Shown: in pieces, positions 8,308 through 17,674 of the stretch
Layout: the number at the start of each line of letters is the position of its first letter
Position numbering within the stretch: position 1 is the stretch's first letter
Assembly: GCA_019747455.1 (NCBI GenBank)
Contig: JAIEQT010000185.1
Location: 1-17,674 of the forward strand
Direction: 5' to 3'
Source of the DNA: Chitinophagaceae bacterium
GTDB lineage: Bacteria; Bacteroidota; Bacteroidia; Chitinophagales; Chitinophagaceae
DNA length: 17,674 nt
The notes under the pieces: model-generated
Told to the model about the DNA's origin: nothing
Databases searched by the model: none
Seen by the model: the letters and a program-made list of their open reading frames with translations, nothing else
Program-made: the position numbers and the translations under genes

Positions 8308-8841
8308 TTACTTTACGTATTTCAGAATTTCCTCACTATCAGGAGTTGTTTTACTAGGAAAGTATTGTAATATCTTGCCGTTTTCATCTAATAAAAATTT
8401 CCCAAAATTCCACTTAATATCAGCGTCTAATACGCCGTTTTCTGCTTTAGAGGTAAGCCATTTATAAATAGGAGCCATATCATCTCCCTTGACGCTTACT
8501 TTACTTGCCATGGGGAAACTTACACCATAATTCTTTTTACAAAACTCTTGAATCTCGCCATCTGATCCGGGCTCCTGACCACCAAAATTATTGGCAGGGA
8601 AACCAATGATCACTAGTTTATCTTTGTACTGGTCGTACACTTTTTGAAGGGCTTCATATTGCGGGGTATAGCCACATTTAGAGGCGGTGTTAACCACTAA
8701 AATTTTCTTGCCCTTGAAAGAAGCAAAATCAATCGTTTTGCCATCAAGACCTTTTACTTTAAAACTATGGATACTATTAGGGCCGGGTAGGGTAAAGGCA
8801 CTTAAAAAGAGTATTGTTACGAGGCTGAAAAAATATTTCAT
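8308..8841 (-). CDS. Glutathione peroxidase-family thiol peroxidase, exported
   Basis: A 177-residue thioredoxin-fold peroxidase. The catalytic set is visible: peroxidatic cysteine C56 in NTASKCGYTPQY, Q89 in FPANNFGGQEPG, and W144-N145 in IKWNFGKFLLD. C101 in EFCKKNYGVSFP is a candidate resolving cysteine. Bacterial members usually reduce hydrogen peroxide or lipid peroxides with thioredoxin rather than glutathione. The first 20 residues (MKYFFSLVTILFLSAFTLPG) are a signal peptide, so it probably acts in the periplasm or on a membrane. I chose ATG 8841. An in-frame ATG at 8892 would put 17 residues before the signal peptide and would start inside the heptamer repeat, so it is unlikely. It lies in a minus-strand run between comF and holB. 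Confidence 0.93.
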   Translation of the reverse strand: MKYFFSLVTILFLSAFTLPGPNSIHSFKVKGLDGKTIDFASFKGKKILVVNTASKCGYTPQYEALQKVYDQYKDKLVIIGFPANNFGGQEPGSDGEIQEFCKKNYGVSFPMASKVSVKGDDMAPIYKWLTSKAENGVLDADIKWNFGKFLLDENGKILQYFPSKTTPDSEEILKYVK

Positions 8842-8853
8842 ATGTTTTTTATG

Positions 8854-8861
8854 TAAAGGTA
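8854..8861 (-). promoter_or_regulatory. Possible -7 promoter box before the peroxidase gene
   Basis: On the minus strand TACCTTTA differs from TAnnTTTG at the last base and ends 12 bases before the ATG at 8841. The same spacing and nearly the same word (TAACTTTA) occur before the gene at 16815. No good -33 element is seen. If used, the peroxidase has its own promoter after the repeat array. Confidence 0.25.
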
Positions 8862-8867
8862 ATGGGT

Positions 8868-8958
8868 TAAATCTACAATCAGGAATCTTCAATTAGGTAT
8901 AACAGATGAAGATTCCAGATTGAAGATTCCAGATTGAAGATTGTAGATTGTAGATTGA
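8868..8958. repeat. Palindromic heptamer array (AGATTNN type) between comF and the peroxidase gene
   Basis: The right arm is seven perfectly phased heptamers, AGATTCC, AGATTGA, AGATTCC, AGATTGA, AGATTGT, AGATTGT, AGATTGA (8910-8958). The left arm has four in the opposite sense, TAAATCT, ACAATCA, GGAATCT, TCAATTA (8868-8895). A 14-base spacer separates them. The array starts 7 bases after the comF stop codon on the minus strand. The arms are complementary over much of their length, so a long hairpin can form in the comF 3' region. The same words make the array inside mutL. Confidence 0.8.
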
Positions 8959-8965
8959 CTATCAT

Positions 8966-9658
8966 CTACAGCGTATACGCTACCGCTGCAATGCTAAGTT
9001 TGGTACCCGGAACGCTGAGAATCGCTTCTCCGCAGGCTTCAAGGGTAGCGCCGGTAGTTATTACATCATCTATAAGCAATATATGTTTGTTTTGAAGGCT
9101 TTCGGGATCACTTATATAAAAAATATTTCTCATATTTTCCCATCTGCTAATTCGGTTTTCATGGGTTTGGGTTTTGGAATCAACCAGCCGAATTACCGAT
9201 TTTTCGAGTATAGGTTTAGCCCATTTTTCTTGTATTCCCTGCGCAATAATCATGGCTTGATTATAGCCTCTTTTATATTCTTTTTTGGGGTGAAGTGGTA
9301 AAGGAACGATAGCATCAATATCGTTAAAACGAGATGATGCAGCTAATGACTTACCGAGTGCATGACCAAGAAAAATTCCGCTATAGATATTGGCTTTGTA
9401 TTTAAGTGAAATGAGTAGTTGTTGTACTAATCCATGTTTATTAAAATAGTACAGTGCAGTTGCCTGCTCAATTGGGATACGCCCCCAAAAAATTTTCTCA
9501 ATAGTATTATGGCTACTATTTATAAAATGCGTTTCAGGTAATGAGATTTTGCAACGCGGGCAAATAACTTCTTTTGCATTGATGAAATCAGCTGCACAAC
9601 CTAAACAATAGTGCGGAAAAAATAAATCGCGAATCGCGATAGCCATTTTGTGAAGCAT
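8966..9658 (-). CDS. comF: ComF-family phosphoribosyltransferase-like protein
   Basis: The 230-residue protein has the double zinc motif CLGC (18-21) and CPRC (33-36). A type I phosphoribosyltransferase fold follows, with PLHPKKEYKRGYNQA (121-135) and the PRPP-binding motif HILLIDDVITTGATLEACG (192-210). ComF proteins are needed for DNA uptake in naturally transformable bacteria and are thought to act in the cytoplasm on incoming single-stranded DNA, but the reaction is not settled. The family is kept in many Bacteroidota not known to be competent, so competence should not be assumed. ATG 9658 is chosen; a second in-frame ATG four codons later is possible. It lies downstream of radA on the same strand; RadA also acts in transformation and recombination, so the neighbourhood is sensible. 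Confidence 0.93.
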   Translation of the reverse strand: MLHKMAIAIRDLFFPHYCLGCAADFINAKEVICPRCKISLPETHFINSSHNTIEKIFWGRIPIEQATALYYFNKHGLVQQLLISLKYKANIYSGIFLGHALGKSLAASSRFNDIDAIVPLPLHPKKEYKRGYNQAMIIAQGIQEKWAKPILEKSVIRLVDSKTQTHENRISRWENMRNIFYISDPESLQNKHILLIDDVITTGATLEACGEAILSVPGTKLSIAAVAYTL

Positions 9659-9730
9659 ACTGCAATATCGAGTGGCAGAAATTATTTTATTAAGGTATTA
9701 ACCGTAAGCGCTAATGTTTTTTAACGGTGA

Positions 9731-9815
9731 GTTTCGTCGGGTCGTCTGACTAAGTCAACCTTATGAGGCGCTAACGTTCCGACGATCTGACGATCTGACG
9801 ACTCGACGTTCCGAC
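9731..9815. repeat. Octamer array with inverted arm, abutting the radA stop codon
   Basis: Five phased octamers occur at 9773-9812: AACGTTCC, GACGATCT, GACGATCT, GACGACTC, GACGTTCC. The next GAC runs into the radA stop codon. An inverted arm lies at 9731-9746 (GTTTCGTC, GGGTCGTC). The arms are about 26 bases apart and partly complementary. The rest of the 156-base comF-radA gap (9659-9730) shows nothing I can name. Confidence 0.65.
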
Positions 9816-11185
9816 TAGAATAGCTGTTGATAAACCTCATCCACCCTGCCAAGTGCAATCACCTCGATACCTTTTTTTTCTTTGGTATTTATTTTATTAT
9901 AACGAGAGATAATTATTTTTTCAAAACCTAATTTTTCTGCTTCTGCAATTCTTTGTTCAATACGCGTAACAGCTCTTATTTCTCCATTCAAACCAACTTC
10001 CCCTGCGAAGCAAATCGATTTTGGTAAGGGAATATCTTCATAGGAAGAAAGTAGAGAACAAATAACAGCTAAATCTATAGATGGGTCTTCCATTTTTATG
10101 CCCCCTGCGATATTCACAAACACATCCTTAATGCCAAATTGAAAGCCACCTCTTTTTTCTAAAACAGCTAATAGTAATTGTAATCTTCTCAAATCAAAAC
10201 CGGTTACAGTTCTTTGCGGAGTGCCGTAAACACTGGTGGTTACAAGTGCTTGCACTTCGATAAGAAGCGGGCGCATACCTTCTAATGAAGCTGCTACGGC
10301 ACAGCCACTTAATACTTCTTCTCTTTGTGCAATGAGTATTTCAGATGGATTTGTTACAACACGCATACCATTCCCATTCATTTCATAAATACCTAATTCT
10401 GCGGTGCTGCCGAAGCGATTTTTTAGGGTACGTAATAATCGATATACATAATGTCTATCACCTTCAAACTGCAATACCGTATCTACCATATGTTCTAAAA
10501 TTTTCGGTCCTGCAATACCACCATCTTTTGTAATATGTCCGATTAGAAAAACAGGGGTATTGGTTTCTTTGGCAAAACGTTGAAAAGCTGCGGCTGTTTC
10601 TCTGATTTGCGAAACAGTTCCTGCGGCAGAATCGATTAATGATGATTCCATCGTTTGAATAGAATCTACTATGATGAGTTCAGGTTTTAATTTTTTTATT
10701 TCTTTAAAAATGGTAGTTGTATCCGTTTCGGTAAGTAAATAAAAATTCTGGTTTTGAATTTGCAATCGATCAGCGCGCATTTTTATTTGTTGCTCACTTT
10801 CTTCTCCACTGATATATAGAATCCGCATCGAAGAAAGTAGTAGTCCGTTTTGTAAGAACAAAGTGCTTTTGCCGATACCCGGTTCGCCTGCTACTAAAAC
10901 CAATGAGCCGGGTACAATGCCACCTCCTAAAACACGATTAAGTTCAGGGTCGGTAGTAATAATTCTTTTTTCCTCGGTAGAGGTAACAGTGTTGAGGGAA
11001 ACTGTTTTTGATTTTCTTTTTTCATCCGTGTAATCATCCCAGCTTTCTTTTTTTGTTGGCTCATTACGGGAAAGCACTTCTTGTGTGAACGTATTCCATT
11101 GTGCACAAGATGGACATTTGCCTAACCATTTTGTACTTTCATATCCACAATTACTACAAAAAAAAGCGGTTTTAATTTTACTCAT
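9815..11185 (-). CDS. radA: DNA repair protein RadA (Sms)
   Basis: The 456-residue protein has the full RadA layout. It starts with a four-cysteine zinc finger (C10, C13, C24, C27). A RecA-like ATPase follows with Walker A GEPGIGKST (100-108), Walker B ELIIVDSIQT (169-178) and the RadA-specific KNRFG motif (255-259). The C-terminal part resembles the Lon protease domain (about 290-456, with SLEGMRPLLIEVQALV and CFAGEVGLNGEIRAV). RadA is a hexameric branch-migration helicase that processes recombination intermediates. Length is normal for the family. The ATG at 11185 directly precedes the zinc finger. The stop codon touches the octamer repeat array. A perfect 10-bp hairpin lies 43-73 bases upstream of the start. 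Confidence 0.97.
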   Translation of the reverse strand: MSKIKTAFFCSNCGYESTKWLGKCPSCAQWNTFTQEVLSRNEPTKKESWDDYTDEKRKSKTVSLNTVTSTEEKRIITTDPELNRVLGGGIVPGSLVLVAGEPGIGKSTLFLQNGLLLSSMRILYISGEESEQQIKMRADRLQIQNQNFYLLTETDTTTIFKEIKKLKPELIIVDSIQTMESSLIDSAAGTVSQIRETAAAFQRFAKETNTPVFLIGHITKDGGIAGPKILEHMVDTVLQFEGDRHYVYRLLRTLKNRFGSTAELGIYEMNGNGMRVVTNPSEILIAQREEVLSGCAVAASLEGMRPLLIEVQALVTTSVYGTPQRTVTGFDLRRLQLLLAVLEKRGGFQFGIKDVFVNIAGGIKMEDPSIDLAVICSLLSSYEDIPLPKSICFAGEVGLNGEIRAVTRIEQRIAEAEKLGFEKIIISRYNKINTKEKKGIEVIALGRVDEVYQQLF

Positions 11186-11552
11186 ATTAGCTGAAAATAG
11201 GATAAATCAACACAGAATCTGGAAATGCAAAAGGGTCAACATTCCTGCTGACCCTTTTACTTACTAACCCATTAAATTCTAACACTAAGTTACAAATCTG
11301 GGCCACACGGCAAAATTAATTTTTTGCATTCAGCGGTATTCGGCCAATTCATATGTAGAATAATTTGCATACTTTTTTTTGTTTAGCGTAATTAAATGGT
11401 TGACTTAAAAAAGCCTGATTTTATAACTTCTGATTCAGGTATTTAGCCCAGAGGTATATTTATAATCAACTATTTAGCGGATTAAAAGCCGTTTTTACCG
11501 ATCATCAATTTTGTTTAATGATTTAAAAATTTATTTGTAAAAAAATTAAAAG
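11186..11552. other. Long AT-rich intergenic region between divergent radA and susC
   Basis: There is no credible coding frame here. It holds a 10-bp hairpin at 11229-11258 and an 11-base word AAAAGCCTGAT at 11409-11419 that also occurs in the susC leader hairpin. I see no tRNA, small RNA gene or clear promoter. It must contain the promoters of radA and susC, but no TAnnTTTG box with a partner element stands out. Confidence 0.5.
11229..11258. other. Perfect 10-bp hairpin upstream of radA
   Basis: AAAAGGGTCA (11229-11238) pairs exactly with TGACCCTTTT (11249-11258) around a 10-base loop. The stem has A-tracts and T-tracts at its base on both strands, which looks like a bidirectional intrinsic terminator. 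It lies 43-73 bases before the radA start codon, however, and no gene ends nearby. It could be a radA leader attenuator or a terminator for an unseen short transcript. Confidence 0.55.
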
Positions 11553-11554
11553 TG

Positions 11555-11652
11555 CATTAAAATTAATATAATGTTAAGGTTGATCGGCAGCTATTCGGTT
11601 ATTTAGGTGGTCAAAAGCCTGATAAATGGCTTTTATACCTAAATTAATCAAC
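11555..11652 (+). promoter_or_regulatory. susC leader element, copy A, with nested hairpin before the start codon
   Basis: This stretch up to the ATG is repeated at 17565-17663 with about nine substitutions and three single-base indels (hand alignment). It contains a nested hairpin. The outer stem is TTTAGGT (11602-11608) with ACCTAAA (11637-11643). The inner stem is AAAAGCC (11613-11619) with GGCTTTT (11628-11634), around loop TGATAAAT. The structure ends 9 bases before ATG 11653. A further inverted repeat ATTAA-AA-TTAAT lies at the upstream end. Confidence 0.7.
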
Positions 11653-14600
11653 ATGAGAAAAAAACTGCTAATTAGTTTTTGTGCTTTACTTTTCGCTATT
11701 ACAGCAGGGTTGGCGCAAACAACAACTGTTACAGGTAAAGTGACAGACGACAAAGGGACGCCGCTTGCTGGCGCTTCTGTTCTTGAAAAAGGCACCAAAA
11801 ATGGTGTAAGTGCCGATGCGAACGGATCTTTTACTATTAAAGTAAAATCTGGGGCAACCCTTATTATTTCCGAGGTTGGCTATGAGAACCAACAGATCTC
11901 ATCCACCTCTACGAATTTGCTGGTTAAGTTGGCGGTTGACACAAAAACCTTAAACGAGGTGGTAGTTACTGGTTCTGGTACAGCCACTACCAGGAGCAAG
12001 TTGGGTATTTCGGTAGAATCCATAAAAGGGGATAAACTCCCACAGATCCCAGCCGCTAGTATCGACCAAGCCTTGGTAGGTAAAATCCCAGGTGCACAAA
12101 TTTCATCTGTATCAGGTAACCCGGGCGACCAGGTGAACATTGTGTTGAGAGGTATTAATACAGTACAGGGAGGTACGCGTCCAATGATTATGTTGGATGG
12201 TACTGAAATTCCATTTTCTAACCTTAATACACTCGATTTAACACAGGTAGAAAGAATTGAAGTTGTTCAGGGCGCGGCCTCTTCTGCTTTATACGGTGCG
12301 CAAGGTGCAAATGGTGTAATACAAATTTTTACTAAAAAAGGAGTTAAAGGAAATGTAAAAGTTGATTTCTCTTCTAGTGTTGCTAATAACATTTATATCA
12401 ATGCCGGAAAATTTGGAAAAGCCAATTTACATCCTTATTTAACGGATGCCAATGGTAATATTGTTTCAGCATTAGCCAGTGGTGGTTTTACACCCGGTCA
12501 ACCACTTAGTATTGATCCGGTGCTAGGCTCCATCCTAGGTTCGGGTTCATTAGCGTATCGTTATGGAACGAACGTACCGGGACTACCTGCTGGATTTACT
12601 ACTCCCGGGGGAACTCAAAACTATACTCGTTATGGAATTCTAGATCCACGGAATACGAGTGACCAAGCGTATACCGGGAATTTAAAATACAACGATCAAT
12701 TTGCACAGGTTTTTCAAAGTGGTATTTCAAGGAACAATAGCATCACATTTAGCGGTGGTGGTGATAAAAACGATTTTAGTCTTACTTTATCCAATAACCA
12801 TGTGCAATCTGCTTTATTAAAAGACAACGGTTCATTAGATAGAACAAATGTGGTGGTGAATTTAGGCTTTGAGTTGTTTAAGAATTTCACCATTCGTTCT
12901 ATTACCAATATTATTTATACAACCAATAATATGCACCCGCAATTGGGTGGTGGAGGAGGTTATGGTTACGGACAAGGTAATTCCAATGCCGATGTGAGTG
13001 GAGTTTTCGGATTTTTGAACACATCTCCGTTCTTCGACCTAACCGCTAAAACCAGTGATGGTACTTATCCTAGTTATCAGCGAGCAAGTTTCGCCAGCGT
13101 TAACGCATTCAATCCCTTCTATCGGTTACAATACACCAATGGGGATGATAAGAGAATTGATTTGGTGCAAAGCTTACAGGCAAGTTACAAAGTCAATAAG
13201 TTTGTAACCTTGGATGCCCGTTATGGTATCAGCTATAGAAATGAAAATGCTATTTGGACCTACTATAACCAGTCTTTAAACAACAACTCAAATTTTTATC
13301 AGAGCTGGGCGGCTTATAATAACGGAAACGACAATACGGGTGAAATCAACAATTTCCAGTATTTCAATACCCGTCAAAACTTTTATACCAGTGCTACTAC
13401 GAAGTTAGATTTTGAAAAGGATTTTCATCTAAAACTGCCTATTCAATCTACTACTTTGGTGGCATTCGACTATAGAAAAAATAAGTATAAAGAATACGAT
13501 ACTTGGGGTCAAACGCTCCCTTTTAATCCTCCTATTAATTTACAGGCAGCTCAACAGCAGTTTGTATCCCTTGACTACATAGAGCCTTTTGTAACCTATG
13601 GTTATTTGGTTGATCAAAAATTTGATTATGCCAATCATTTGGGTATTTCCGGTGGCTTTAGAACAGATTATTCTTCTGCTTTTGGTGCGGGATCTAAACC
13701 TTTCACTTTTGGTCATGCCAATGGTTATATCAACGTGCATACTTTTGGATTTTGGGATCCAATTAGCAAAGTGGTATCGGCATTTAAAATTAGAGGTGGT
13801 TGGGGCCAGGCCGGTATTCAGCCGGGTGCATTCCAACGTTATCCAGTGTTGAATTTACAGCAAACCGGTAATGAGGTTACTTATACCAACCAAACCACTT
13901 CACGTAACCCTAATTTGAATGTGGAAGTTTCTACAGAGATGGAAGTTGGTACCGACCTTTCTTTTAATTTAGCAAAAACAGGAAAATGGTTCAGGTCACT
14001 GAATGCTAATTTCACTTACTGGAAAAGGTCAACAGACAATGCGATTTTCTCACAAAACGTTCCGCCTTCAACTGGCGCTTCTCAATTGCTAACCAATGCC
14101 ATCTCACTTTCTTCCAATGGATTGCAGTTGGGAATTAACATACCGGTTTACTACAGCAAAGATTTTACCTGGGATTTCACCGCCAACTTCGGTAAGCAAA
14201 AATCAACTATCGATAACGTATCGGGTGGAGATATACCGCTTACTACCGCTGCAGGAAGCTCAGGATTGATTTTGAAATCTGGCGCACCAATCGGACAAAT
14301 CTATGGCTACAAGGCCTTAACTAGCATCGATCAAACCAGGGCCGATGGAACACCTTTCATTCCTGCTGCCGATAAAACCAACTACGAAATTGTGGATGGC
14401 AGAGTTGTAAATAAACTTACGAAAGCCATCTTCTTTTCGGATGAAGCAACAGCTTTTGGAGATCCTAATCCTAAGTTAACTTCATCTTATATCAATAGCT
14501 TTACCTATAAAGGAGCCTTTAGCTTTGGCTTCCAGTTCGATTGGGTATATGGATCTCATTTATACAATCAAACAAATGAGTGGATGTACCGCGATGGTAT

Positions 14601-14988
14601 CAGTAGCGACTTCACCAAGCCTGTAACCATTAACGGACAAACCGGTGCCTATACCGCGTATTATGCAAGTGCCTATTATGCACTTGGAAATACAGCCAGA
14701 GGAGTAGGTAATAATACCACTAAAGACTATTTCTATTCCGATGCTTCTTTTGTAAGGTTGAGAAACGTTTCTCTTGGTGTAGATTTTGCTAAGTTATTTG
14801 ATATGAAATGGGCTAAAAAATGTCAACTTGTTCTTAGCGGAAGAAATCTATTAACTTTTACCAAGTACAAAGGATTGGATCCTGAAATTAGCTCAGGCTC
14901 TTCTAACTCGGCTTTTGATAGAGGTATAGACAATAGTACTATCCCTAATTTAAAAGCGTATCAAGTAACCCTAAATCTTGGTTTCTAA
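11653..14988 (+). CDS. SusC/RagA-family TonB-dependent outer-membrane receptor
   Basis: An 1111-residue receptor. Domains in order: signal peptide (1-22, ending ITAGLAQ); carboxypeptidase-regulatory-like domain (about 23-97, with VTGKVTDDKGTPLAGASVLE); a TonB-box-like LNEVVVTG (100-107); plug domain (about 113-230, with LVGKIPGAQISSVSG, IVLRGINT, PMIMLDGTEIPF and SALYGAQGANGVIQIFTKKG); then the outer-membrane beta barrel to the C-terminal phenylalanine (VTLNLGF). It works with the SusD lipoprotein encoded 18 bases downstream to import an unknown nutrient. The start is ATG 11653 (MRKKLLISF); an in-frame ATG nine codons earlier would add residues before the signal peptide and falls inside the conserved leader hairpin. 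No STN domain, so no ECF-sigma signalling is indicated. No glycanase or peptidase in the operon hints at the substrate. Confidence 0.96.
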   Translation: MRKKLLISFCALLFAITAGLAQTTTVTGKVTDDKGTPLAGASVLEKGTKNGVSADANGSFTIKVKSGATLIISEVGYENQQISSTSTNLLVKLAVDTKTLNEVVVTGSGTATTRSKLGISVESIKGDKLPQIPAASIDQALVGKIPGAQISSVSGNPGDQVNIVLRGINTVQGGTRPMIMLDGTEIPFSNLNTLDLTQVERIEVVQGAASSALYGAQGANGVIQIFTKKGVKGNVKVDFSSSVANNIYINAGKFGKANLHPYLTDANGNIVSALASGGFTPGQPLSIDPVLGSILGSGSLAYRYGTNVPGLPAGFTTPGGTQNYTRYGILDPRNTSDQAYTGNLKYNDQFAQVFQSGISRNNSITFSGGGDKNDFSLTLSNNHVQSALLKDNGSLDRTNVVVNLGFELFKNFTIRSITNIIYTTNNMHPQLGGGGGYGYGQGNSNADVSGVFGFLNTSPFFDLTAKTSDGTYPSYQRASFASVNAFNPFYRLQYTNGDDKRIDLVQSLQASYKVNKFVTLDARYGISYRNENAIWTYYNQSLNNNSNFYQSWAAYNNGNDNTGEINNFQYFNTRQNFYTSATTKLDFEKDFHLKLPIQSTTLVAFDYRKNKYKEYDTWGQTLPFNPPINLQAAQQQFVSLDYIEPFVTYGYLVDQKFDYANHLGISGGFRTDYSSAFGAGSKPFTFGHANGYINVHTFGFWDPISKVVSAFKIRGGWGQAGIQPGAFQRYPVLNLQQTGNEVTYTNQTTSRNPNLNVEVSTEMEVGTDLSFNLAKTGKWFRSLNANFTYWKRSTDNAIFSQNVPPSTGASQLLTNAISLSSNGLQLGINIPVYYSKDFTWDFTANFGKQKSTIDNVSGGDIPLTTAAGSSGLILKSGAPIGQIYGYKALTSIDQTRADGTPFIPAADKTNYEIVDGRVVNKLTKAIFFSDEATAFGDPNPKLTSSYINSFTYKGAFSFGFQFDWVYGSHLYNQTNEWMYRDGISSDFTKPVTINGQTGAYTAYYASAYYALGNTARGVGNNTTKDYFYSDASFVRLRNVSLGVDFAKLFDMKWAKKCQLVLSGRNLLTFTKYKGLDPEISSGSSNSAFDRGIDNSTIPNLKAYQVTLNLGF

Positions 14989-15006
14989 CATCCTAAATTA
15001 CTAAGC

Positions 15007-16722
15007 ATGAAAAAGAACACAATTTTTACAATACAAAAAGGACTGTTAAGATCCACCGTTAGCACGTTTGCACTTACCGCATTATTAGGTTTGCAAGCTT
15101 GTAAAAAAGACCTGGAGGTTAACAATCCCAATTCTCCAACAGTAGGGGGTAATGTTACTAATGAAAGTGGCATAGCTGCCTATGCAAAAGGTACCGTTTA
15201 TTGGAACGGATTTAATTATGGTAATGGCTGGTTGGGAGATAGTTATTTTTCCCTACCCTGGGGTTATATTGAATTAATGGGGGATGTTGTTGGAGGTGGT
15301 CAGGGCTCTAACAACCAAACAACAACGATGGGGGTTCCCGATCGTTTTCAAGCAGATCCAGCAGATGCCACTACTGTTTTTACTAATCCTTCTCCTCAGG
15401 TAAGTATTATCCGCTCCTTCAATACACAGGCTGCAAGCTCGAATGCGAATAATGCCCTGATTTATCAGTGGACGAGTAATTACGCACTGATAAATGCCGC
15501 TAATTTAATAGTTGAAAACCTAGGAAATGTTTCAGGACTATCTGTTGACAAAGCAAATACCATTAAAGCCTGGGCAGCTTGGTGGAAGGGATACGCTTAT
15601 TCACAAATCGGATCTTTATATTATGCAGGCTTAATTATCGACAAATCGAATACGGTTGTAAACACCTATGTAGATAAAAATGCCATCATTGCTGAATCTA
15701 ACCGTAACCTCAGCGCTGCAGCTACATTGCTCAATGGAATAAGCAATCAGGGTGATTATGCTGCTATGATTGCACAGTTGATCCCTAAGCAAAACCAAGT
15801 AGGATTAGGTATGCCCCCTACTTCAGCTCAATGGGTACGCATCATTAATACCATGTTGGCCAGGAATATTGTTTTGAATAAGCTGGCTCCTTTTGTTAAT
15901 GGTAGTTTAACTGCAAGTATATCAAAGTCTAGCACCACAGCCATGACGAATGCAGACTGGCAGTCTGTTATTACTTTATGTAATAATGGAATTCGTTCGG
16001 GTGATTACGTGTTCACCGGTCGTTCTTCCGCTGCTAATTCTTTCTTTTCTGCAAGTGGTGGTACTGTGGCTTCTTTAGCGGCAATTAGCAACCAAAACTC
16101 AACCTATAAAGTGAGTGAGCGCCTTGTTCAACAATTTAAATCGAATGATAAGCGACTTGCAAACTTTAGTACAACTAACGGTACTTTCTTTGGCGACGCC
16201 AATACTAACAGTACACGATACACTTTAGTAGATGGTGTAACTGCTGGTTTGTCGGGTATCCCTATATTTGGTTCACGCCAGGCGGGAGGTATCGAAATTT
16301 ACCTTTCACCCACCTATGAAGAAAATACACTGATGCTGGCTGAAGCAAATATTCGTTTAGGAAATGTACCTGTTGCGCTTACACAAATAGATGCAGTAAG
16401 AAGTGCACAGGGATCGGGTGTAAGTACTTTAACAGGGTTGCCTTTAACAGCTGCACAAGCTATGACGGAACTTACGATGGAACGTTTGGCTGCATTGGCT
16501 TTTAGAGGTTTATCATACTATGATTTGAGAAGATGGGGCTGGACCTATTCCATTGCCAATGGTGGTGGTCGTTATGGATGTAATGTTATCTTCCGTAATA
16601 CACTCTATACCAATGCCACATTTAATTATAACTATATGGATTATTGGGATGTACCTGCAGATGAGCTTGTAAAAAATCCTCCTGCTGCTTCGAGTGCAGT
16701 GGTTAAGAACCCCAATTATTAA
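15007..16722 (+). CDS. SusD/RagB-family nutrient-binding outer-membrane lipoprotein
   Basis: A 571-residue lipoprotein. The signal peptide ends in lipobox LQAC with Cys32; the following KKDLE fits the lysine-acidic type of surface export signal seen in Bacteroidota lipoproteins. The family pattern is clear in the C-terminal half: EENTLMLAEANIRLGNVPVAL with IDAVRSAQGSG, and ELTMERLAALAFRGLSYYDLRRWGW near the end. SusD proteins form the hinged lid over the SusC barrel at the cell surface and bind the substrate first. It starts 18 bases after susC and is surely co-transcribed. A strong terminator follows 39 bases after the stop, so the operon is a simple susC-susD pair. Substrate unknown. Confidence 0.95.
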   Translation: MKKNTIFTIQKGLLRSTVSTFALTALLGLQACKKDLEVNNPNSPTVGGNVTNESGIAAYAKGTVYWNGFNYGNGWLGDSYFSLPWGYIELMGDVVGGGQGSNNQTTTMGVPDRFQADPADATTVFTNPSPQVSIIRSFNTQAASSNANNALIYQWTSNYALINAANLIVENLGNVSGLSVDKANTIKAWAAWWKGYAYSQIGSLYYAGLIIDKSNTVVNTYVDKNAIIAESNRNLSAAATLLNGISNQGDYAAMIAQLIPKQNQVGLGMPPTSAQWVRIINTMLARNIVLNKLAPFVNGSLTASISKSSTTAMTNADWQSVITLCNNGIRSGDYVFTGRSSAANSFFSASGGTVASLAAISNQNSTYKVSERLVQQFKSNDKRLANFSTTNGTFFGDANTNSTRYTLVDGVTAGLSGIPIFGSRQAGGIEIYLSPTYEENTLMLAEANIRLGNVPVALTQIDAVRSAQGSGVSTLTGLPLTAAQAMTELTMERLAALAFRGLSYYDLRRWGWTYSIANGGGRYGCNVIFRNTLYTNATFNYNYMDYWDVPADELVKNPPAASSAVVKNPNY

Positions 16723-16761
16723 ATGTTTTCTCATAGTTTCTCTTGTTTAATTTTTAAGTAC

Positions 16762-16785
16762 GCGAGCCCCATTCCTGGGGCTCGC
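16762..16785 (+). terminator. Intrinsic terminator of the susC-susD operon
   Basis: A 9-bp perfect stem, GCGAGCCCC (16762-16770) with GGGGCTCGC (16777-16785), closes a six-base loop ATTCCT. The stem is GC-rich in AT-rich surroundings and is followed by CTTATTTCG, a modest T-rich tail. It lies between susD and the next gene. Confidence 0.85.
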
Positions 16786-16794
16786 CTTATTTCG

Positions 16795-16802
16795 TAACTT
16801 TA
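16795..16802 (+). promoter_or_regulatory. Possible -7 promoter box for the secreted hypothetical gene
   Basis: TAACTTTA differs from TAnnTTTG at the last base and ends 12 bases before the ATG at 16815. It lies just after the operon terminator, so the gene needs its own promoter here. No -33 element is convincing. Confidence 0.3.
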
Positions 16803-16814
16803 ATAAAAACAATT

Positions 16815-17522
16815 ATGTATAAGGTAAGTATCATTTGTTTGTTTGTATTTAGTCTTTTGAATAACAATACATATGCTCAAGCCTCCAACACAGGGTTACT
16901 AGTTGGCAAATGGGATCAACAAATGGTTATTACCGATATGAATGGAAGACCCTTTAAATCTTCTTATGATGATGTAAAAGGAAGCCCCTATTTAAGGGAC
17001 AGTTTCAATATTGGTACAATCCTTCTTAGTAATGGAACAAAAATTAATCATATACTGTTGCGTGTAGACCTCTGTAACCAATCTGTTCAGTTTAAAGCAC
17101 AAGATGGTCAACAACTATACGTTGGCGCGTCTGAAGTGATTGAAGTAAATTATGAGGACGTATTTGCCGAAAATGCCTCTGTAAAACTCAGAACGCATTT
17201 TCCGCCTGTAGATTTTCATAAAGCAAATGAGTTTTTTGAAGTGCTATCAGAAGGTTCAATAACTTTATTAAAGTCTACAACAAAACGAATAGATATTCAA
17301 AAGCACGGGTTAAGCGGAGAAATTTCAAAAGAGTTTATTACCTATATAGATTACTATGTCCTGAAAGAAGCAAAAATGATCCGATTAAAACACGATAAAG
17401 ATTTTATTCGTGGTATTTTTTCAGACAAAACAGAAAAAATGGAAGCTTACCTCCACAATTACAAGAAAATAATAAGGCAGGAGGCAGATTTAATAAATAT
17501 ATTTAATTATTATAATATGTAA
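16815..17522 (+). CDS. Secreted protein of unknown function
   Basis: A 235-residue protein with a signal peptide (MYKVSIICLFVFSLLNN, cleavage near AQA at about 21-23). The mature part contains KGSPYLRDSFNIGTILLSNG, LLRVDLCNQSVQFKAQDG and FFEVLSEGSITLLKS. This order of short beta strands recalls small exported proteins common in Bacteroidota that have no assigned role, but I cannot name a family. There is no lipobox, transmembrane anchor or catalytic motif. It sits between a susC-susD operon with its own terminator and the start of another leader of the same kind, so it is probably a single-gene transcript. A link to either transporter is not shown by the sequence. Confidence 0.75.
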   Translation: MYKVSIICLFVFSLLNNNTYAQASNTGLLVGKWDQQMVITDMNGRPFKSSYDDVKGSPYLRDSFNIGTILLSNGTKINHILLRVDLCNQSVQFKAQDGQQLYVGASEVIEVNYEDVFAENASVKLRTHFPPVDFHKANEFFEVLSEGSITLLKSTTKRIDIQKHGLSGEISKEFITYIDYYVLKEAKMIRLKHDKDFIRGIFSDKTEKMEAYLHNYKKIIRQEADLINIFNYYNM

Positions 17523-17564
17523 TTGGCTAAAATGCCTTCAAAAATGAATAAAACCTTAAAAAAT

Positions 17565-17663
17565 CATTAAAATTAATGAATTGTTAAGGTTTGTCAACAG
17601 CTATTTGGTTATTTAGGTGGTCAAAAAGCCTGATAAAAGGCTTTTATACCTAAAATTAACAAC
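17565..17663 (+). promoter_or_regulatory. susC-type leader element, copy B, with the same nested hairpin
   Basis: This is a near repeat of 11555-11652. The outer stem is TTTAGGT (17612-17618) with ACCTAAA (17648-17654). The inner stem is AAAAGCC (17624-17630) with GGCTTTT (17639-17645), around loop TGATAAAA. All stem bases are kept; the differences fall in the loop, the internal bulge and upstream. The structure again ends 9 bases before ATG (17664). Confidence 0.7.
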
Positions 17664-17674
17664 ATGAGAAAAAA
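17664..17674 (+). CDS. Start of the next gene, probably another susC (only 11 bases visible)
   Basis: ATG AGA AAA AA reads M-R-K, the same first residues as the susC at 11653 (MRKK). It sits 9 bases after an identical hairpin. The call rests on the copied leader; no domain is visible. Confidence 0.45.

Follow-up and report, generated by a model that had tools for sequence, protein, structure and literature searches.

The window analysed here is the whole of a 17,674-nucleotide contig from a Chitinophagaceae bacterium (JAIEQT010000185.1; G000:C647, from an assembly of 650 contigs that is 76.55% complete), in which a repeat of about 100 bases directly precedes two genes starting with ATG-AGA-AAA, the first of which is susC. 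We propose that this repeat is probably a promoter-proximal leader belonging to a susC expression site located between radA and rng, at which the leader and the head of SusC would stay fixed while SusC/SusD bodies are swapped by homologous recombination. A wider scheme, in which bodies are exchanged across species and genera behind this fixed platform and start-proximal nested RNA hairpins, which would have arisen at this one site in at least two leader types, gate translation, is put forward tentatively and is rather doubtful.

The repeat had been described in the first-pass annotation, and both copies were found where it had placed them. A search of the genome with the leader region returned two matches, the second being 86% identical across 124 of 151 query bases (E = 1.5e-34); the leader copies themselves are 86% identical and each is immediately followed by ATG-AGA-AAA. 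The annotation had counted about nine substitutions and three indels by hand, which a MAFFT alignment of 11555-11652 with 17565-17663 corrected to 12 substitutions and 1 indel. Its description of the nested hairpin held: all 28 stem bases are identical between the copies, the loop and the bulge differ as it had said, and both hairpins stop 9 bases 5' of the ATG (at 11653 and 17664).

The annotation had called for further copies in relatives, and these were found upstream of susC starts. A sequence-only profile of nine leaders, with the start codon left out, gave 32 matches in 30 of 147 Sediminibacterium genomes at E ≤ 1.1e-6, the next match coming only at 0.0019. All 32 are followed by ATGAGAAAA, the start of susC. 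Ten genomes from four other genera, including Hydrotalea flava (G311), also carry the leader before ATGAGAAAA in a sample of 394 genomes of the family, looser matches being accepted by eye. Family matches without a following ATGAGAAAA, with weaker or equal scores, were treated as chance, including those of model R2 in G371 (E = 2.2e-5) and G498 (5.9e-5). Seven of the ten other-genus leaders had gone into R2, so that its independent finds are G357, G230 and G415 only; G137 was left out of this model and of one leader alignment. A possible more distant leader, in a fifth genus, precedes a ATGAGAAAACAG start in G210 (L089; E = 5.3e-4 with model R1) and was not counted. A pattern scan of 84,980 genomes returned 36 stretches, 34 of them identical in the matched part to leaders already collected; the remainder were L171, a new Chitinophagaceae metagenome-assembled genome (MAG), and L169 (Herbaspirillum), apparently a chance match. 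Across genera the leaders share the skeleton GCAGC-N17-GGTC-N16-GG, with few indels, and an A-rich run into the start codon.

This distribution marks the leader as an old, retained element and not simply a recent copy. We considered the possibility, which the annotation had also raised, that the repeat is nothing but a recent segmental duplication without selected function. The window copies do head tandem units, but leaders are conserved in other species and genera, where they are mostly single, and this refutes duplication as the full explanation, leaving it a negligible chance.

The genomic setting is mostly the same. Among 33 loci examined, radA adjoins the leader in 28 and four others are cut by a contig end; in the remaining one (G153), the leader follows what appears to be another susD-like operon. 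A long contig of G096 has the order radA, leader-susC1-susD1-hypothetical-leader-susC2-susD2-...-third susC; the window follows this order through the first unit and into the beginning of the second. G003 has a single unit, with the order radA, leader-susC-susD-hypothetical, rng (an RNase of the Rne/Rng type). From these two gene orders we take window copy 2 to head a second tandem unit; the contig stops 11 bases into the second gene, which is therefore not readable here. In 19 relatives that lack the leader, with genes named by eye, the radA-rng interval contained no susC in 11, a susC of class F (see below) in five and another susC in two, one being unjudgeable.

Behind the leader, SusC appears to be made of two parts with different histories. 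Among 24 complete genes we distinguished at least five body classes, which share 22-55% identity between classes (22-27% for class E against the rest, up to 55% for B against C). Class A comprises the bodies of G000, the first unit of G096 (G096.1), G027, G034 and G138, as well as G306 and G415 of another genus; class B those of G003, the second unit of G096 (G096.2), G032, G158, G093 and G149; class C those of G021 and G083; class D that of G013; and class E those of G072, G164, G147 and G073, as well as G289, G206, G193 and G230 of other genera. The four G072-type bodies are 62-64% identical to those of the four other-genus genomes and 22-27% identical to the other classes within their own genus. 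In Hydrotalea flava (L207, from 3786 on) the susC head is frameshifted and the body continues in another frame.

Body classes cut across close sister genomes. The sisters G003 and G021 share 94% identity in radA, 92% in the leader and 97% in the head, compared with 55% in the body, and the G003 body is 75-78% identical to those of G096.2, G032 and G158. The two units of G096 share 86% of the leader, 97% of the head (residues 1-60; 92% over residues 1-80) and 49% of the body. The DNA identity of their first 225 coding bases, 84-92%, is higher than would be expected from protein constraint alone. Body class also differs behind similar heads in G013 and G153, and G136 and G124 have the same first 20 residues followed by differing bodies (68% and 97% identical to that of G034). 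Identity dropped 150-375 nt into susC in the profiled pairs; for G072 against G027 it dropped at the ATG, from 87% in the last 75 leader bases to 64% in the next 75.

This was examined further with tree tests on 23 sequences, from which G096.2 and ten loci with a split, truncated or not-included susC were excluded. The radA tree was rejected by the body data by 3935 log units, and the body tree was rejected by the leader data by 52 log units (approximately unbiased (AU) test, 3.4e-6). Together, the identities and the trees show that the leader and roughly the opening 75 codons of susC follow the species far more closely than the remainder of the gene. Compared with the body, the leader stands much closer to the species history, without matching it exactly.

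Several observations weigh against our proposal. On the leader data, the AU test rejected the radA topology in its exact form (24 log units, p = 0.0039; 0.054 in the Shimodaira-Hasegawa test), the leader tree was rejected by the radA data by 158 log units, and the leader alone is short (106 nt). Bodies of classes B and E also occur at the locus without a window-type leader (G069, G006). The canonical Bacteroidetes promoter arrangement TTG/TAnnTTTG was not evident by eye in the leaders, and no promoter was identified. Finally, much the same pattern would arise without lateral transfer from ancient tandem paralogs that were differentially lost and whose heads underwent conversion. Recombination through an arm formed by the leader or the head seems to us the likeliest origin of the mosaics, either as lateral replacement or as loss and conversion among tandem units, two routes that sequence alone does not separate.

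We next asked what the hairpin contributes. One possibility, as the annotation had proposed, is a cis-regulatory RNA, in which the nested hairpin in the mRNA, 9 nt 5' of the AUG, controls the access of ribosomes and is perhaps opened by a protein, a small RNA or temperature. In its favour, the 55-56 nt hairpin pieces of the window copies form much more stable folds than their shuffles do (z = -4.24 and -5.02); longer pieces of 116 and 110 nt fold less well (z = -2.84 and -1.63). Among 42 leaders, nine had z < -2, namely both window copies, G021, G003, G096a, G083, G023 and G095, these eight belonging to the window clade, and G418 of the genus of H. flava; the others lay between -2 and +1. This count depends on the piece folded, since G206 and G153 fall below -2 and G083 no longer does when 62-nt pieces are folded. 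By a looser criterion, at least 4 outer and at least 4 inner pairs in the minimum-energy fold, 23 of the 42 leaders adopt a nested fold, so that weak nested folds are commoner than the strong hairpin. Over the loci collected, the MRKK-type susC starts (40 distinct ones, those of class F among them) also average z = -1.73. No such tendency was observed at susC-like starts generally, 44 susC-like or PF13715 starts, chosen by the most upstream in-frame ATG, having a mean z of -0.31 versus -0.55 for 166 background genes (p = 0.88).

Within the window clade, represented by 11 rows of which 10 are distinct, covariation was limited to the inner stem, where three pairs are compensated out of 14 in the whole hairpin; 79.7% of the cells pair. 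The outer stem has 0 compensated pairs and 13 of its 70 cells are unpaired. None of 500 shuffles reached the covariation score (0.116) or the number of compensated cells, yet sliding the structure by one column gave an equal 3 pairs and 4 cells, with a score of 0.079. Against a cis-regulatory RNA, then, stand the uncompensated outer stem and the fact that in most of the family the sequence is kept but the hairpin is weak; structure conservation past close relatives was not found for the window leader, the strong hairpin being almost confined to the window clade. What stood of the annotation's claim is thus a conserved cis element before susC, with many copies in relatives, and not a conserved strong hairpin. 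Its idea that the hairpin may act as a weak attenuator was not borne out, as the copy 1 region (11400-11700) contained 0 terminator-like sites, i.e. a G+C-rich hairpin followed by a U run. A scan of the window and six related loci with Rfam release 15 found no family at a leader; sub-threshold matches lay at 2776-2802 of the window and, in one of the six related loci, away from the leader. A pairing of GCAGCTTTTT with susC codons 3-6 was dropped, its partners not being kept in G013, G153, G306 and G289. Hairpin-like leaders were also seen before a second MRKK gene of G230 (L211; z = -2.54) and, by eye, before a second susC with an MRKK start in G021 (L043).

A second type of susC leader, class F, was matched in 12 of the 147 Sediminibacterium genomes; one of these (G081) yielded no leader, and 11 leaders were analysed. 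In six loci checked, this leader lies 3' of radA in five and in the second unit of G083. It forms a nested hairpin before the ATG in which 8 of 14 pairs are compensated (19 cells) and 91.6% of the cells pair, 16 of 141 paired cells being G-U. Its covariation score was 0.447, against at most 0.203 for slides, and no shuffle out of 500 was as high in four of five measures, the covariation score included (1 of 500 in the fifth). Compensation in class F thus exceeds the shuffle and slide controls, which do not model the tree. No homology between the two leader types was detected: the window profile R2 reached at best 5.8 bits at the position of the class F leader, and the structured class F model R3 did not find the window-type leader. 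Across 35 sources, R3 found the class F leader of G083, a marginal match in G069 (E = 0.099) and two at E ≥ 0.65; in the 394 family genomes, only two class F genomes were found at E = 0.01. G069 has a different leader, with a perfect 14-bp hairpin directly 5' of a class B susC (L242, 1566-1627; z = -6.93).

These findings lend credence to start-proximal hairpins before susC at this site, on grounds of structure and not of sequence. A start-proximal hairpin gate is still a live idea because of the strong covariation of the class F leader. The lack of detectable homology between the two leader types counts against the cis-regulatory RNA. On balance, we consider control by a hairpin in the window-type leader possible but doubtful; it would be compatible with the expression-site proposal. 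Class F provides a clean covarying hairpin beside the start codon in bacteria that lack Shine-Dalgarno sites, an absence mentioned in PMC9723704. To our knowledge, control of initiation by hairpins has been little studied in this group.

Alternatively, the skeleton may combine a promoter with an operator and serve an alternative sigma factor or a regulator, with the inverted repeats acting partly as DNA operator half-sites. Few indels from GCAGC to GG, unlike what is seen in RNA loops, fixed spacings of 17 and 16, and an A/T-rich tandem TTAAAA block upstream within the genus are all consistent with this. Yet no regulon was seen: of 166 further upstream regions sampled from G072 (about 9% of the genome; none expected by chance), 0 contain GCAGC-N17-GGTC, and no regulator gene was recognised by eye at the locus. 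This possibility, which is likewise compatible with the leader of an expression site, is also possible but doubtful. In the same 166 regions TAnnTTTG occurred 43 times versus 21.7 expected, and 8 times versus 1.45 with TTG 18-21 bases before it; the sole leader that by eye fits TAnnTTTG well is that of L171 (TACATTTG). An expectation-maximization promoter model trained on these regions was set aside after drifting towards a T-rich motif. Words of the AGTGAAG type, probably from a tandem repeat, were strongly over-represented in the upstream regions of 400 kb of G072 (L173-L192).

Two further readings concern what might be encoded or bound at the leader. A leader peptide could be read from CAG CTT TTT AGT TAT TTA GGT GGT CAA AAA GCC TGA (QLFxYLGGQxx*), with its stop in the hairpin loop. 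Within the genus, differing codons indeed had a mean BLOSUM score of 1.22 in frame 0 versus -1.15 and -1.06 in the other forward frames, a value reached by 6 of 300 column permutations (19 distinct rows; G096b, G137, G000a and G110 left out). There is no conserved start codon, nearly all rows have an in-frame stop upstream, and the frame is broken in window copy 1 and, by eye, different or lost in other genera, which makes a peptide very improbable. Also unlikely is that the susC start is the target of a trans-acting small RNA similar to FopS, which would fit the joint conservation of the leader and the first codons and the binding of FopS near susC mRNA start codons described in PMC11697453. 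Against it, the conservation observed is confined to one locus; no small RNA search was made.

Taken together, we suggest the following sequence of events at the expression site. Signals for transcription and translation in the leader would be under purifying selection, and the conserved leader and head would serve as an upstream homology arm. SusC/SusD bodies could then be replaced, with expression retained, by homologous recombination among tandem units or with DNA from outside. In the window clade the leader would have become a stable nested hairpin 9 nt 5' of the start codon; its most likely effect, and the least certain step, would be to reduce or gate the initiation of translation. The function of the leader, whether as promoter, translation start or hairpin gate, is what we infer from these data.

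The features of the locus are as follows. SusC1 matches the SusC/RagA profile TIGR04056 with 464 bits (cut-off 368.25). The spacing after GGTC is 15 in copy 1, where one base is lost, and 16 in copy 2.

Features of the susC locus in the window
Feature	Position	Strand	Basis or remark
radA, left neighbour of the locus	9815..11185	-	TIGR00416
Leader copy 1, conserved block upstream of susC1	11545..11652	+	own-genome search, profile match
Skeleton element GCAGC, copy 1	11587..11591	+	sequence and leader alignments; in copy 2 ACAGC, 17597-17601
Outer stem 5' arm TTTAGGT, copy 1	11602..11608	+	stem comparison, fold
Skeleton element GGTC, copy 1	11609..11612	+	alignments; in copy 2 17619-17622
Inner stem 5' arm AAAAGCC, copy 1	11613..11619	+	stem comparison
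Inner stem 3' arm GGCTTTT, copy 1	11628..11634	+	contains the third skeleton element, GG
Outer stem 3' arm ACCTAAA, copy 1	11637..11643	+	stem comparison
susC1 head, covering the signal peptide and the greater part of the CarboxypepD_reg-like domain	11653..11880	+	boundary approximate; kept together with leader
susC1 body, class A (rest of N domain, plug, barrel)	11881..14988	+	class differs among lineages
susD1	15007..16722	+	SusD/RagB profile PF07980, 39.9 bits (cut-off 23.1)
Hypothetical protein of the unit, 235 aa	16815..17522	+	without family match
Leader copy 2, upstream of second susC (gene cut by contig end)	17555..17663	+	own-genome search, profile match
Outer stem 5' arm, copy 2	17612..17618	+	stem comparison
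Inner stem 5' arm, copy 2	17624..17630	+	stem comparison
Inner stem 3' arm, copy 2	17639..17645	+	stem comparison
Outer stem 3' arm, copy 2	17648..17654	+	stem comparison
Second gene, first 11 bases (contig end)	17664..17674	+	susC by analogy with G096

Through its altered loop, copy 1 has gained an in-frame ATG at 11626, nine codons upstream of susC1 (MAFIPKLINMRKK), which automatic annotation could call as the susC start. The window was also compared from 8701 to 11792 with L077, a locus of G096, a Sediminibacterium MAG from sheep duodenum. Tracts of 100% identity (8701-10200 and about 10800-11792) are separated by a patch of 92-97%, and one flank has 80-95% identity, the other about 72%; the tracts end within the susC1 head. 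These tracts may reflect either recent recombination or a chimeric assembly.

Literature on susC leaders, shufflons and mosaic susC genes gave no account of this leader or locus, most subscription papers being outside coverage. SusC/SusD pairs determine what Bacteroidota import, and a fixed start with an exchanged body would allow a change of diet or surface without rewiring expression; the breakpoints of body exchange are testable from sequence.

Control of susC at the RNA level is known from DonS-type RNAs (PMC7366714), which differ from the leader described here in being antisense RNAs. FopS and RbpB, as presented in PMC11697453, similarly show post-transcriptional control at the susC start region in Bacteroides, but through a trans small RNA across many polysaccharide utilization loci (PULs), as opposed to a cis leader at one locus. 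The replacement of PULs in B. ovatus/xylanisolvens, proposed in PMC8845570 to occur by recombination between conserved node genes, resembles our locus in that the SusC/SusD cargo varies while its neighbours stay fixed, and in that some strains have no cargo at all; here, by contrast, one crossover would fall at or inside susC, with the leader and head kept. A further related system is the ragA/susC intergenic shufflon (region EE) of B. fragilis, in which, according to PMC5729914, inverted repeats overlapping the susC start place different SusC/SusD pairs behind one expression start by DNA inversion downstream of an invertible promoter. In the window and in G096 the repeats at the susC start are direct and tandem, not inverted, and inversion was not seen; no site-specific invertase was recognised by eye in the open reading frame lists of the locus, of which only some frames were profile-scanned. 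If the scheme is true, a platform with hairpin gates would form a slow equivalent of the SusC shufflon that needs no recombinase.

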